A stretch of DNA of 12,287 nt from Oscillospiraceae bacterium (lineage in GTDB: Bacteria; Bacillota_A; Clostridia; Oscillospirales; Oscillospiraceae): positions 1 to 12,287 of the forward strand of contig JAFTKA010000021.1 in the NCBI GenBank assembly GCA_017456105.1. The letters are read 5' to 3'. The notes under the pieces were generated by a model. It did not search any database, was not told the DNA's origin, and saw only the letters and a program-made list of their open reading frames with translations. Both the position numbers and the translations under genes were made by a program. The number at the start of each line of letters is the position of its first letter. The first letter of the stretch is position 1. Of the stretch, positions 465 to 5,920 are shown piece after piece.

Positions 465-962
465 GTGCGGATCTTGGGAATCGACCCGGGCTACGGCATT
501 ACCGGCTTTGGCCTGATTGAAGGGGAGCGGGGGCAATTTTCGCTTCTGCGTTACGGTGCGATCACAACGCCTGCGGGAATAGACTTTTCCGCCCGGCTGG
601 AGATCATATATGAGGATATGCGAAAGCTTCTGGAAGTGGCGAAGCCCGATGCGGTAGCCATCGAAGAGCTGTTTTTCGGCCAAAACGTTACCACCGGCAT
701 TGGGGTAGCCCAAAGCCGGGGCGTGATTTTGCTGGCGATCCGCCAGGCGGGCTTGCAGGTGTTTCAGTACAAGCCCATGCAGGTAAAGCAGGCGGTGGTT
801 GGCTACGGCAACGCCACCAAGCATCAGGTGCAGGATATGACCAAGCGGCTTTTGAAACTGGAAAAGCTGCCCAAGCCCGACGATGCGGCGGACGCCATTG
901 CCATTGCCCTGTGCCACGGCCGGTCCAGCACGTCCCTCATCGCGAAAGCGATGAAGAATTGA
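465..962 (+). CDS. ruvC: Crossover junction endodeoxyribonuclease RuvC
   Basis: RuvC is the Holliday-junction resolvase that cuts four-way junctions held by RuvAB. The GTG start at 465 is chosen because AGGAGGAG sits 6 bases upstream and because the protein then opens with the family's (M)RILGIDPG. The in-frame ATG at 429 would add 12 residues of no family character. The product is 165 aa, the usual length. All four acidic catalytic positions are visible: Asp7 in GIDPG, Glu67 in the A-I-E-E-L-F-F segment, and Asp140 and Asp143 in PDDAADA. The last codon and the TGA stop lie inside the left arm of an inverted repeat that bounds the next gene, so the insertion may have set the exact C-terminus. 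It is the first gene of a ruvC-(insert)-ruvA-ruvB operon. Confidence 0.96.
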   Translation: MRILGIDPGYGITGFGLIEGERGQFSLLRYGAITTPAGIDFSARLEIIYEDMRKLLEVAKPDAVAIEELFFGQNVTTGIGVAQSRGVILLAIRQAGLQVFQYKPMQVKQAVVGYGNATKHQVQDMTKRLLKLEKLPKPDDAADAIAIALCHGRSSTSLIAKAMKN

Positions 963-989
963 AAATTGAAAGTTGAAAAGTGAAAATTA
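957..989. repeat. Left arm of 33-bp inverted repeat (7-bp units)
   Basis: The arm consists of four successive 7-bp units, AATTGAA, AATTGAA, AGTTGAA and AAGTGAA, followed by AATTA. It matches the reverse complement of 1331-1363 at 30 of 33 positions by hand alignment. It begins at the last sense codon of ruvC and ends on the A of the next gene's ATG. Confidence 0.9.
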
Positions 990-1333
990 TGAGAAAGATT
1001 ATTCAAACAAAAAGTTTTCGCTTCGCATTACGTATCGTAAAATTGTGTAGTTACCTACAAAACACAAAACACGAATTTATTATGGCAAAACAACTGCTGC
1101 GCTGTGGAACCAGTGTGGGTGCAAATGTTGCGGAATCCGAACACGCCCAAAGCAGAGCGGATTTTTGTTCTAAACTCAATATCGCATTAAAAGAAGCCGC
1201 AGAAACCGACTATTGGTTGCGGTTACTGCACGAAGCCGGATACCTCAATGAGGGGGAATTTCGGTCAGTGTATGCCGATTGTAAGGAAATTGAAAAAATC
1301 TTAGCAGCGATTGTAAAGACGGTTAAAGAATAA
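989..1333 (+). CDS. Four-helix-bundle protein (23S rRNA IVS / S23-like family)
   Basis: This is a 114-residue protein of the four-helix-bundle family first described from open reading frames in 23S rRNA intervening sequences; the DGR accessory protein Avd shares the fold. Family signatures are the opening I-x-x-K-S-F-x-F-A-x-R-I-V-K-L, the central S-K/A-K-Q-L-L-R-C-G-T-S-V-G-A-N-V-A-E block (about residues 34-51), and A-D-F-C-S-K-L-N-I-A-L-K-E-A-x-E-T-x-Y-W-L-R-L-L in the third helix. ATG 989 is preferred over the in-frame GTG at 980 because it gives the usual N-terminus; there is only a weak A/G-rich SD. No catalytic motif is visible. Nucleic-acid or protein binding is the family expectation, and the function in this operon is unknown. 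Its base composition and inverted flanks suggest acquisition. Confidence 0.88.
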   Translation: MRKIIQTKSFRFALRIVKLCSYLQNTKHEFIMAKQLLRCGTSVGANVAESEHAQSRADFCSKLNIALKEAAETDYWLRLLHEAGYLNEGEFRSVYADCKEIEKILAAIVKTVKE

Positions 1334-1363
1334 CTTTCAATTTTCAACTTTCAACTTTCAATT
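1331..1363. repeat. Right arm of 33-bp inverted repeat (7-bp units)
   Basis: This is the reverse-complement partner of 957-989, made of units of the TTCAATT/TTCAACT type. It starts with the TAA stop of the four-helix-bundle gene and ends 21 bases before the ruvA start. In an ruvC-ruvA transcript the two arms could form a 33-bp stem with three mismatches. Confidence 0.9.
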
Positions 1364-1384: not shown

Positions 1385-1981
1385 ATGATCTATTATGTTC
1401 GGGGTCCTGTAACGGTTTTAGAGCCGGGTTTGGCGGTAATTGACTGCCACGGCGTGGGCTACGGCTGTCGTGTAACCGCCCATACTGCCGCCCAGCTGAA
1501 GCTGAATCAGGAGGCAAAGCTCTACATTACCGAATCTATTCGGGAGGACGCCTTTGACCTGTACGGCTTTATCAGCCGGGAAGAGCAGAACTGTTATGAG
1601 CTGTTGACCACCGTCAACGGTGTAGGCCCGAAAGCGGCCATGGCCATTTTATCCTCCGGGCCTCAGAACTTCACCTTAGCGGTGATGACCGGGGACGAAA
1701 AGCTGTTGACCGCCGCTCAGGGCGTGGGTAAAAAAACCGCCCAGCGAATTATTCTGGAATTGAAGGACAAGGTGGGCGGCAGCAGCGTGGAGCTGGATTT
1801 CTCCGGTCCCACGGTGGCAGCACCTGCAAATCAGGGCAACGCCGCTATGGCCAATGCGGCCCTGCAGGAGCTGGGCTACTCTCCTGCGGAGATCGCTGCG
1901 GCACTGAAGGGCGTCGATCCCAACGCAACCACCGAAGAAATGGTACGCCATGCTTTAAGAGCGATGGTGATGAAAGGGTAA
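1385..1981 (+). CDS. ruvA: Holliday junction branch migration protein RuvA
   Basis: RuvA binds the four-way junction as a tetramer and loads the RuvB motor. The product is 198 aa, within the family range. The N-terminal OB-fold (about 1-63) starts with MIYYVRGPV and contains E-S-I-R-E-D-A-F-x-L-Y-G-F. Two helix-hairpin-helix motifs follow: LTTVNGVGPKAAMAIL (about 74-89) and A-A-Q-G-V-G-K-K-T-A-Q-R-I-I-L-E-L-K (about 110-127). A flexible linker (about 135-155) precedes the C-terminal three-helix domain that contacts RuvB (ALQELGYSPAEI onward). The start is set by GTGAGG at 1372-1377, 7 bases before the ATG. The gene lies 51 bases after the inserted four-helix-bundle gene and 76 bases before ruvB. 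No separate promoter is evident, so expression probably depends on read-through across the insert. Confidence 0.96.
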   Translation: MIYYVRGPVTVLEPGLAVIDCHGVGYGCRVTAHTAAQLKLNQEAKLYITESIREDAFDLYGFISREEQNCYELLTTVNGVGPKAAMAILSSGPQNFTLAVMTGDEKLLTAAQGVGKKTAQRIILELKDKVGGSSVELDFSGPTVAAPANQGNAAMANAALQELGYSPAEIAAALKGVDPNATTEEMVRHALRAMVMKG

Positions 1982-1987
1982 TATTTA

Positions 1988-2018
1988 ATGCATAATGCAA
2001 AATGCAGAATGTAGAATT
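1988..2018. repeat. Heptamer tandem tract between ruvA and ruvB
   Basis: Four tandem 7-bp units, ATGCATA, ATGCAAA, ATGCAGA and ATGTAGA, are followed by ATT. The tract has the same period as the arms around the four-helix-bundle gene but a different unit. It lies in the 76-bp ruvA-ruvB spacer and has no coding potential. Confidence 0.75.
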
Positions 2019-2057
2019 ACAAAAAATTGAGTTTTCATGAAAACCGGGAGGTTTTGT

Positions 2058-3098
2058 ATGAGTTTAGAATTTTCTGAAGAATTGGATACTTCCCCGATTA
2101 TTTCGCCCACCTTTGCTCCTCTGGACGCAGGAGAGATTGGCCTGCGGCCAAAGCTTTTGTCCGACTACACCGGCCAGGAGAAGGCAAAGGGGAATCTGTC
2201 CGTATATATTGAAGCCGCACGCTTAAGAAACGAGCCGTTGGATCATACTTTGCTGTATGGCCCGCCCGGTTTGGGAAAAACTACCTTGGCGGGGGTTATT
2301 GCCAACGAGATGGGTGTGAACATTCGCATTACCTCCGGCCCGGCCATCGAAAAGCCTGGCGACTTAGCGGCACTGCTGACCAACCTGAACCCCGGTGATA
2401 TTCTGTTTATCGACGAAATTCACCGGCTGAACCGGGTGGTGGAGGAGATCCTGTACCCGGCCATGGAGGATTTTGCCATTGATATTATCGTGGGCAAGGG
2501 ACCCTCTGCCAATTCCATTCGGCTGGATCTTCCCAAGTTTACTTTGGTGGGAGCAACCACCAGAGCCGGTCAGCTTTCTGCCCCGTTGCGAGACCGCTTT
2601 GGCGTATCTCTGCGATTGGAATTGTATACCCCCGAGGAGCTGGCCCGGATCGTTACGAGATCGGCAACCATCTTGGGTATGGACATTGAGCCTGAGGGTG
2701 CTATGGAGATCGCCTCCCGCAGTCGCGGCACGCCCCGGATCGCTAACCGTTTTTTGCGTCGCGTCCGGGATTTTGCCCAGATCATGTGCGGCGGTAAGAT
2801 CACCAAGGAAGCAGCCGACCTTGCTCTGCAGCGGCTGGAGGTGGACCAGTTGGGACTGGACGCCATTGACCGCAGAATGCTGACTGCCATCATCAAGAAT
2901 TACGGCGGCGGCCCGGTGGGCCTTGATACCCTTGCAGCCACCATTGGGGAGGAGGCGATCACCCTGGAGGACGTTTACGAGCCCTATTTGATGCAGCTGG
3001 GATTTTTGACCCGCACGCCCCGGGGAAGATGCGTTACACCCTTGGCATATCAGCACTTGCACATTCATTACGACGGTCAGGAACAATTTGAAATTTAG
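2058..3098 (+). CDS. ruvB: Holliday junction branch migration ATPase RuvB
   Basis: RuvB is the hexameric AAA+ motor that drives branch migration with RuvA. The chosen ATG at 2058 has GGAGGT six bases upstream and gives 346 aa; an upstream in-frame ATG at 2037 would add seven residues that include the SD itself. Motifs in order are the N-terminal [12 protein letters not shown] region (about 29-40), Walker [10 protein letters not shown] (68-76), Walker B with DEIH (119-122), sensor 1 GATTRAG (165-171), the arginine-finger segment PLRDRFG (176-182), and a [12 protein letters not shown] sensor 2 block. The C-terminal winged helix includes the conserved [11 protein letters not shown] and TPRGR motifs. 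All key residues are intact. No GC-rich terminator is seen in the 50 bases after the stop. Confidence 0.97.
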
Positions 3099-3612: not shown

Positions 3613-3668
3613 TGTAGGGAATGCATTTATGCATTCCGTTTTGCGGAGCGGATCAATCCGCTCCCTAC
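3613..3668. repeat. Two-hairpin interspersed repeat, copy 2
   Basis: The outer stem is GTAG/CTAC. The first hairpin is GGAATGCAT/ATGCATTCC (3618-3626/3629-3637, loop TT). After the linker GTTTTGC, the second hairpin is GGAGCGGAT/ATCCGCTCC (3645-3653/3656-3664, loop CA). Compared with copy 1, the second hairpin differs on both sides of its stem so that pairing is kept. It lies between the convergent ends of the zinc-ribbon and GntR genes. Confidence 0.85.
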
Positions 3669-5603: not shown

Positions 5604-5825
5604 TGTAGGGCGGGGGTTTGCTCCCACCGGACGGAGCGATTCGCGAATCACCCCGGTAAAACGACGGTAGGGAATGCATTTATGCATTCCGTTTTGCGGA
5701 GCAGATCAATCCGCTCCCTACATATTCTATTGGACATCGCAGAGCAGCGATACCGAGCGGGGCGATAAACGATCAGATCAGGACTTTGCACGCATTGTCC
5801 GCCGCGACTGGCGGCCCGCCCTACA
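5604..5825. mobile_element. Composite MITE-like element with 11-bp terminal inverted repeats
   Basis: TGTAGGGCGGG at 5604-5614 is the exact reverse complement of CCCGCCCTACA at 5815-5825. The 222-bp interval contains a GATTC-GC-GAATC hairpin (5638-5649), copy 3 of the two-hairpin repeat (5667-5722) and the first unit of a ~104-bp tandem duplication. No coding sequence is credible inside. The A/T-rich flanks (AATTA to the left, AATTC to the right) are similar but not an exact target duplication. It may be a nested accumulation of short repeats instead of one element. Confidence 0.55.
5667..5722. repeat. Two-hairpin interspersed repeat, copy 3
   Basis: This has the same plan as copy 2: GTAG/CTAC outer stem, GGAATGCAT/ATGCATTCC hairpin, GTTTTGC linker, and a second hairpin GGAGCAGAT/ATCCGCTCC with one unpaired position. 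It differs from copy 2 by a single internal base. It is nested inside the composite repeat region. Confidence 0.85.
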
Positions 5826-5920
5826 AATTCTGTCGATCATCACCATAGGAACGATACCGAGCTGAAAGACAAACGATGAAATCAGCACCCTGTACGCATT
5901 GTCCGCGGGCACAGCCCGCC
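5718..5920. repeat. Tandem duplication of a ~104-bp spacer unit
   Basis: Two degenerate copies run from CTACA at 5718 and at 5821. Shared landmarks sit 103-104 bp apart: CGATACCGAGC (5748 and 5852), an AAACGAT-A-ATCAG block, and CGCATTGTCCGC (5791 and 5895). Each ends in a GC-rich hairpin, for example GCGGGC-ACA-GCCCGC at 5905-5919. A fainter third beginning (ATAAATTTGTCGA) follows at 5925. Confidence 0.7.

Follow-up and report, generated by a model that had tools for sequence, protein, structure and literature searches.

The window, by which we mean the whole stretch of DNA analysed (12,287 nucleotides of contig JAFTKA010000021.1 from an Oscillospiraceae bacterium), carries ruvC, ruvA and ruvB on the forward strand. 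Between ruvC and ruvA lies a gene for a four-helix-bundle protein of the S23 (IVP) family, framed by inverted arrays of seven-base words. The features are as follows.

465..962, forward strand: ruvC, the upstream host gene (PF02075)
957..989, forward strand: left arm, a heptad array with five A-R cores (AATTGAA AATTGAA AGTTGAA AAGTGAA AATTA)
960..962, forward strand: TGA stop codon of ruvC, taken from the first heptad of the left arm
989..1333, forward strand: S23/IVP four-helix-bundle gene, 114 aa (PF05635, TIGR02436; PDB relatives 2rld and 2gsc)
1331..1363, forward strand: right arm, an inverted heptad array that starts with the TAA of the S23 gene (from the sequence)
1385..1981, forward strand: ruvA, the downstream host gene (PF01330, PF14520, PF07499)
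1986..2017, forward strand: one-sided gene-free heptad array in the ruvA-ruvB spacer, AATGCAT type, five AAT cores
2055..3098, forward strand: ruvB (PF05496)

Profile searches placed the protein in the family encoded by 23S rRNA intervening sequences (PF05635 at 2.8e-29, TIGR02436 at 2.3e-33) and reported no catalytic domain in it. The arms (957-990 and 1330-1363; 34 nt, 91% complementary) came first in the inverted-repeat listing of the window; one other listed pair is longer (37 nt) yet only 70% complementary. In the best ungapped register the arms span 33 nt (957-989 and 1331-1363), of which 30 match. The S23 ATG (989-991) starts on the final base of the left arm, and the right arm opens with the S23 TAA (1331-1333). 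The initial annotation of this DNA had described the gene, its family, the 30 of 33 matching positions and both of these junctions, and the sequence and the profile matches bear it out on each point. The unit sits in the short gap that runs from the ruvC stop codon to the ribosome-binding site of ruvA. The RNA fold of 950-1372 gave a z of -3.9, and none of 100 shuffles folded equally well. The array at 1986-2017, which the initial annotation did not mention, uses a word different from that of the S23 arms.

BLAST with the E. coli 16S and 23S sequences gave no rRNA match in the window or in any of 393 loci. No Rfam family exceeded its cut-off at the window element, no reverse transcriptase was found among the five window proteins scanned by profile, and no transposase lies inside the S23 unit. 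Set beside the 23S intervening sequences (IVS), the unit has the S23/IVP protein and terminal inverted repeats capable of forming a stem, and it is not inserted in rRNA. None of the five proteins scanned is the reverse transcriptase that, with template and variable repeats, marks a diversity-generating retroelement, and the framed gene is S23, not a RAYT gene between REP hairpins. The unit agrees with the description of a heptad-armed S23 unit, in which inverted period-7 arrays with A-R cores enclose the S23 gene.

Two other repeats were seen in the window. A REP-like double hairpin is present in three copies (328-382, 3614-3668 and 5667-5721; GTAGGGAATGCAT...CCCTAC) and belongs to a family distinct from the heptad arrays. 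Two direct 77-nt copies (5740-5816 and 5844-5920) are 74% alike and 104 nt apart.

Heptad arms across the S23 family

Comparisons were made on relatives of the window genome, with one genome per species, many of them possibly incomplete. A first scan of contigs gave 22 relatives; in many of these, by eye, purine-rich tandem words precede the gene and their complement lies behind it, the words differing from one relative to another. Arms were scored as the complementarity between left and right flank. With 160-nt flanks, 300 control ORFs had a 99th percentile of 23 and a maximum of 30. Above that 99th percentile were 57 of 98 family ORFs, which came from 93 sequences (92 loci and the window), and the window itself scored 51. 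With 200-nt flanks, arms with a score of at least 30 were found on 82 of the 149 distinct S23 copies of the first set, and flanking complementarity was below 24 in 60 of the 149.

The same was observed in three other phyla, Bacteroidota, Verrucomicrobiota and Acidobacteriota (those of loci L013, L018 and L017). Arms scoring at least 30 accompanied 45 of 78 copies there, the counts leaving out 15 of 108 loci without an ORF by the profile used. This compares with 21 of 250 control ORFs; the controls were drawn from the loci at the head of the set, and frames on the opposite strand that overlap S23 flanks may be among them. By phylum, in the order given, arms were present on 13/30, 14/24 and 18/24 copies, and 10/13, 13/14 and 11/18 of the armed copies had period 7. 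Among the genomes sampled, the family itself is present in 116 of 148 from Bacteroidota, 78 of 115 from Verrucomicrobiota and 58 of 119 from Acidobacteriota, and in 73 of 300 from the taxonomic family of the genome that holds locus L001.

In the first set, 64 of 74 left arms had seven as their best period, as did 34 of 45 arms in the three-phylum set. At lag 7 the mean self-match of left arms was 0.745; all other lags between 2 and 12 gave values of 0.255 to 0.335. Left arms were purine-rich in 75 of the 82 armed copies. Where both neighbours of an armed copy were called, co-directionality with both was the commonest arrangement (35/56). Among the copies compared, a period of seven is common to the arms across phyla; the heptad itself varies between copies.

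Over 41 words of the first set, the core reads A, then a purine, then usually T, the other four bases being free, with an information content of 3.23 bits against 2.35 after permutation (sd 0.10, maximum 2.72). The matrix of this core did not transfer to the three-phylum arms (0.49 against 0.17, sd 0.26), for which the refitted core was A-G (2.73 against 2.29 permuted, sd 0.10, maximum 2.57; 35 arms). Arrays had a median size of 32 nt, whether they were left arms of the first set, right arms of that set or gene-free. Five uninterrupted cores were the commonest count in the first set (32/68 left arms, 41/69 right arms). Five was likewise the commonest number in the three-phylum loci (12/29 left arms, 8/26 right arms) and among gene-free arrays (54 of 100), the last taken from loci up to L255 (L256-L285, where S23 arms are unmasked, were left out). 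The PDB relatives of S23, 2rld and 2gsc, have five chains each, and the Xanthomonas structure of the two (2gsc, protein XCC0516 of Xanthomonas campestris) is described as a homopentamer torus in an excerpt of PMC4990558. The five chains and the five-core arrays together suggest that one S23 subunit probably takes up one heptad core, although the agreement between five cores and five subunits may be a coincidence.

Some copies belong to a second class. Among the arm-less copies listed, many have, by eye, an upstream inverted array in which words of 7-8 nt alternate with small hairpins; L041, L252, L250 and L148 are examples. A tRNA gene was present in 9 of 13 second-class loci scanned. The upstream array of L041 exceeded the cut-off for Gut-1 RNA (Rfam RF01706) and that of L063 fell just below it; Gut-1 RNA overlaps one second-class array and has no match to the window element.

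Several further S23 copies were recorded. The richest genomes were that of L021 (19 matches) and those of L013 and L017 (10 each), some matches being partial or below the cut-off. No S23 relative was found on viral contigs. Two phage records from human faeces, MT835815.1 and MT835590.1, encode S23 relatives of 43% and 39% identity. The cyanobacterial plasmids L150, L151 and L153 carry heptad-armed S23 units that follow a helicase gene, which in L151 is annotated drmD; further along come a restriction enzyme gene in L151 and a methyltransferase gene in L153. The number of heptads is unequal between two Planktothrix plasmids.

Empty sites, gene-free arrays and candidate movers

Within the genus around L001, the ruv spacers are highly variable. 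Two of 30 RuvA loci carried a relative of the window S23 (the genomes of L001 and L009), and nine of the 26 others with a ruvC match had at most 32 nt between that match and ruvA. Gene-free heptad hairpins were seen by eye between ruvC and ruvA in L106, L114 and L120, and between ruvA and ruvB in L096, L100, L101, L104, L106, L114, L116 and L118. In L001 the S23 unit lies between ruvA and ruvB rather than between ruvC and ruvA, and its protein is 88% identical to that of the window. The ruvC-ruvA spacer of L118 contains a heptad array next to which lies an unrelated ORF that may be the cargo of a heptad unit.

The purH-purD spacer was surveyed as a second site; 27 of the 30 returned loci were readable, and eight further rows were picked for carrying the unit. 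Among the 27, eight had an S23 unit, one (G330) had an apparent shortened remnant, two had gene-free heptad hairpins and one had a one-sided array. Four of the remaining spacers were 25-42 nt long and 11 held other sequence. The initial annotation had called for a comparison of ruvC-ruvA spacers and for a search for arms on other family genes, naming as contrary outcomes the gene at this place in all relatives with unrelated flanks, or no heptamer arms on any other copy. On the side of the sequences, the comparison gave short ruvC-ruvA and purH-purD spacers without the unit in relatives, and the search gave heptad arms on the S23 copies of both sets. The comparisons are between species: no transposition and no filled and empty pair at strain level was seen, and no target duplication was recognised among relatives that are too distant to show one.

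Gene-free arrays were compared with the arms of S23 copies. For 71 arrays in 18 genomes, the similarity to arms of the own genome was 1.064, against 0.525 with genome labels permuted (sd 0.066, maximum 0.754 of 2000); genomes rather than arrays were permuted because both arms of one hairpin counted as two arrays. Own-genome arms ranked first for 37 of the 71 arrays, in 12 of the 18 genomes; the own genome was not the best match for 34 arrays, and six genomes had no own-best array. Of six genomes whose arrays had gone unmatched in an earlier comparison, S23 copies fetched later gave the missing word in G337, G347 and G322 and did not give it in G330, G327 and G351. As far as these genomes go, the word in a gene-free array tends to be one used by an S23 copy of the same genome.

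Arrays were also counted in 20-kb stretches, none holding an S23 gene (L187, chosen at a ruv site, was left out), with a detection threshold biased towards arrays of at least three units. At the strict threshold, 29 period-7 arrays were found in 635 kb from 25 genomes with S23 and one in 691 kb from 20 genomes without it; periods 5, 6, 8 to 11 and 13 showed no comparable difference. Counted per genome, arrays occurred in 8/25 against 1/20 genomes at the strict threshold (p 0.03) and in 8/25 against 4/20 at the looser one (p 0.50), where a few genomes dominate (G330 with 12, G354 with 10 and G337 with 6 of 37 arrays). One genome, G353, had heptad arrays and no S23 was found in it, though it may be incomplete.

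Plain polymerase slippage could make heptad repeats, the link to S23 then being incidental. Excerpts of two papers are consistent with this, reporting that array copy number differs between Coxiella strains (PMC4990558) and proposing slippage for bacterial heptamers (PMC4692102). We regard slippage or chance as the least probable of the explanations considered here, because the arrays are inverted around one gene family and their words match those of their own genome; the five-core lengths also speak against it.

REP/BIME hairpins are dispersed, intergenic and tied to a RAYT transposase gene. Matches to REP_Tyr_transpos (NF047646, E 0.001 or better) were present in 30 of 41 genomes with S23 and in 5 of 20 without it (p 0.0007), kinship not being controlled; only 5 of the 61 genomes exceed the curated NF047646 cut-off. 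With Y1_Tnp the association was weaker (27/41 against 6/20, p 0.013), and Y1_Tnp makes a poor census of RAYT genes because the RAYT-type proteins of ruv spacers score below its cut-off. Genes of this type lie in the ruvA-ruvB spacers of L008, L097, L110 and L111 (NF047646 at 8e-16 to 7e-20, below the curated cut-off), a spacer that holds heptad units in relatives. The S23-negative, array-bearing G353 had three NF047646 matches, whereas neither RAYT nor Y1_Tnp was found in the array-bearing G309 and G354, which may be incomplete. A RAYT protein might move heptad hairpins as it moves REPs, with S23 as a passenger, a chaperone or an end-binding partner. The NF047646 association led us to rate this explanation higher. 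The association may nevertheless follow kinship and the REP-like repeats of the window are another family, and on balance we consider movement of this kind unlikely.

Reverse transcriptase was tried as a partner and rejected, since no association with S23 appeared across the 61 genomes. An Avd-like S23 that works with a reverse transcriptase copying the arrays would fit the resemblance of PF05635 to Avd in sequence and structure (PMC10053308, seen in part). RVT_1 was nevertheless not enriched with S23 (17/41 genomes with S23 against 13/20 without it, p 0.11), and none was found in G309, G347, G350, G354 or G334. Such a partnership seems highly improbable.

Words, paired arms and selection

The 15 purH-purD copies of S23 form one starred clade (95/91, on few columns and with a bootstrap that had not settled). 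Their words include AGATACA, AATTAGG, AGTGGAG and GATAGGA. The match of a left arm to the right arm of the same copy had a median of 41, against 15 across copies with differing left arms (28 ordered pairs). At purH-purD the two arms of a copy have thus kept matching each other through changes of the word. Over all 82 armed copies, the own right arm ranked first for 44 and within the first three for 67. Six of the seven ruv-located copies in the tree form one starred set, with L009 outside it. Word similarity correlated with S23 similarity below 60% identity with a rho of 0.154 (null sd 0.058; the highest of 300 permutations was 0.197) and below 50% identity with a rho of 0.063. In these comparisons the word tracks S23 similarity mainly among close relatives, and the relation is weak or absent among distant copies. 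The dN of S23 was 0.06-0.26, and in 20 of 21 pairs dS had reached saturation; by this measure S23 is under purifying selection.

Mismatches between the arms showed no bias towards G-U: 47 were of the G-U type and 72 of the A-C type in 82 elements, with 40 and 51 in 48 three-phylum elements and 18 and 19 in gene-free hairpins. The order of heptads in one arm followed that in the other no better than after permutation (0.895 against 0.890, p 0.38, 51 elements), and the same held for the three-phylum loci (0.865 against 0.855, p 0.26, 24 elements). When six genomes that partly repeat the first set were added to the latter, the values were 0.866 and 0.846 (p 0.046). Under selection for RNA pairing, G-U mismatches should outlast A-C mismatches; they do not, and these data therefore give no support for an RNA stem.

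The initial annotation had suggested that the arms form a long stem in the ruv mRNA. In its fuller form, the arms would pair in that mRNA, RNase III would cut the stem and free the S23 message, and the stem would be under selection. The stable fold of the window unit is in keeping with this, as are the co-directionality of most armed copies with both neighbours and the Coxiella IVS, which has a 28-bp stem and heptads before the S23 ATG and is cut by RNase III in vitro (PMC4990558, in part). Against it stand the mismatches without G-U excess, the missing covariation heptad by heptad in the main set (the p of 0.046 being that of one mixed set, and of 0.26 without its repeats) and the 393 loci without an rRNA match. 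Selection on an RNA stem found no support in either set tested, the first or the three-phylum set, from mismatches or from heptad order, and we judge this account of the unit doubtful. The evidence is against the stem as the selected trait, not against the occurrence of cleavage. Of the earlier interpretation, then, the self-contained IVS-like unit in protein operons stands, upheld by the arms across the family and the empty sites, and the long ruv mRNA stem as a maintained feature is not supported. With neither a G-U excess nor covariation in heptad order, the conserved trait is therefore the shared word in inverted orientation, which, as judged from sequence comparison, is more in keeping with a protein recognising the word than with a stem.

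Recognition by a protein could also be stationary. S23 might be a TRAP-like ring that binds five-heptad mRNA arrays and controls its own translation and operons like ruv and pur, the arrays not being remains of anything mobile. The window array abuts the S23 ATG, left arms are mostly purine-rich, the 15 purH-purD copies are one site and one clade, and S23 is under purifying selection, all of which such a regulator would accommodate. The sites nevertheless differ between relatives and include empty and foreign-insert states, S23 copies of several words occur in one genome, and single arrays had no clear strand preference (8 sense and 3 antisense; 10 and 5 with the unmasked S23 arms of L256-L278 included). 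We find a purely regulatory role improbable.

Known systems and a proposed explanation

The closest known unit is the 23S IVS of Coxiella burnetii. According to excerpts of PMC4990558, it holds an S23 ORF, a 28-bp terminal stem and heptads GACAGAT directly before the ATG; RNase III cuts it at the first repeat in vitro, the ends having been mapped, and the function of S23p proteins is said to be unknown. To judge from these excerpts, it shares with the units described here the S23 ORF, a size of about 400 nt, a similar stem length, heptamers 5' of the ATG and a varying number of repeats. The unit of the window, in contrast, lies in the spacer of a protein operon and its right arm opens with the stop codon, and carrier genomes here hold gene-free relatives of the same word and show no sign of selected RNA pairing. 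IVP ORFs within 16S and 23S insertions have also been described in CPR bacteria (PMC11270868, in part).

Heptamer repeats are known from bacteria apart from S23. Excerpts of PMC4692102 describe them as over-represented and with no role found. They give the heptamers of Xanthomonas (GGGAATC) and of Nostoc (GGGGA(C/T)T), and report that in Xanthomonas four units are commonest, that the mean distance between a repeat and the ORF on its 5' side is 28 nt, and that inverted pairs number 70 and 75 cases. A TAACTGA heptamer is described in Beggiatoaceae, with translational control proposed, in an excerpt of PMC4679880; between them, the two excerpts propose quadruplexes or translational control. These orphan heptamers resemble the arrays studied here in being seven-base intergenic units and, in Xanthomonas, in lying near the upstream ORF with many inverted pairs. 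By our own reading of the words, they fit an A-N-T core once rotated or complemented; the commonest Xanthomonas count of four units, as given in PMC4692102, corresponds to five cores only when a fifth, partial core is included. Searched for the terms four helix, S23 and intervening, PMC4692102 and PMC4679880 gave none of them. S23 proteins linked to heptad arrays outside rRNA were not found in the literature searched, which covered few subscription papers. In Flavobacterium columnare 94-081 and ATCC 49512, a four helix bundle gene lies in another operon-like spacer, its neighbours being the genes for guanylate kinase and nicotinate-nucleotide adenylyltransferase (PMC5524665, in part).

Three other systems offer partial likenesses. 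REP/RAYT elements, too, are intergenic hairpins that are dispersed and linked to a gene; they share the ruv spacers with the heptad units and RAYT co-occurs with S23, but S23 has no reported catalytic domain and its arms are heptad arrays. Avd of the diversity-generating retroelements is a related four-helix-bundle protein (PMC10053308, in the part seen), whereas no reverse transcriptase was seen beside the S23 unit and none is enriched with S23. The likeness to TRAP lies in the proposed logic only, that of a ring of n subunits reading n evenly spaced short cores. TRAP, the trp RNA-binding attenuation protein, has eleven subunits and binds RNA triplet repeats; it is unrelated to S23 as a protein and differs also in its shorter spacing and its known RNA binding.

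We lean towards the reading that the block at 957-1363 is one copy of a widespread IVS-like unit of mobile type in protein operons, with an S23 pentamer that probably reads five heptads. The mobility of the unit is inferred from its distribution. The S23 pentamer would be a ring that engages a single array, each subunit contacting one heptad core, in a manner comparable to the binding of triplet repeats by TRAP. The arrays would therefore be the sites that the ring recognises, either in DNA or in single-stranded form. An inverted pair of arrays would mark the ends of the unit, and gene-free hairpins would be non-autonomous derivatives served by the resident S23 protein. The enzyme that cuts or copies strands may be supplied by the host or by another element, movement being the least supported step of the proposal. 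Expression of the unit would come from riding on the transcript of the operon.

It is possible, though we hold it more tentatively, that S23 proteins in general are pentameric rings reading five seven-base words, each lineage with its own word, and that they define a new class of mobile units including the 23S intervening sequences and the orphan heptamers. If so, the 23S intervening sequences would be the rRNA branch of the class and the orphan heptamer repeats of bacteria its non-autonomous progeny. The link between S23 and heptamers gives both a testable role, with a five-subunit ring, a five-core array and a copy-specific word, and it would explain why one protein family is found in rRNA, in housekeeping operons and beside retroelements. 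S23 would then be a compact repeat-binding protein with many natural specificities. The distribution of these units suggests an overlooked class of small mobile element, which may be a source of the seven-base repeats of bacteria.
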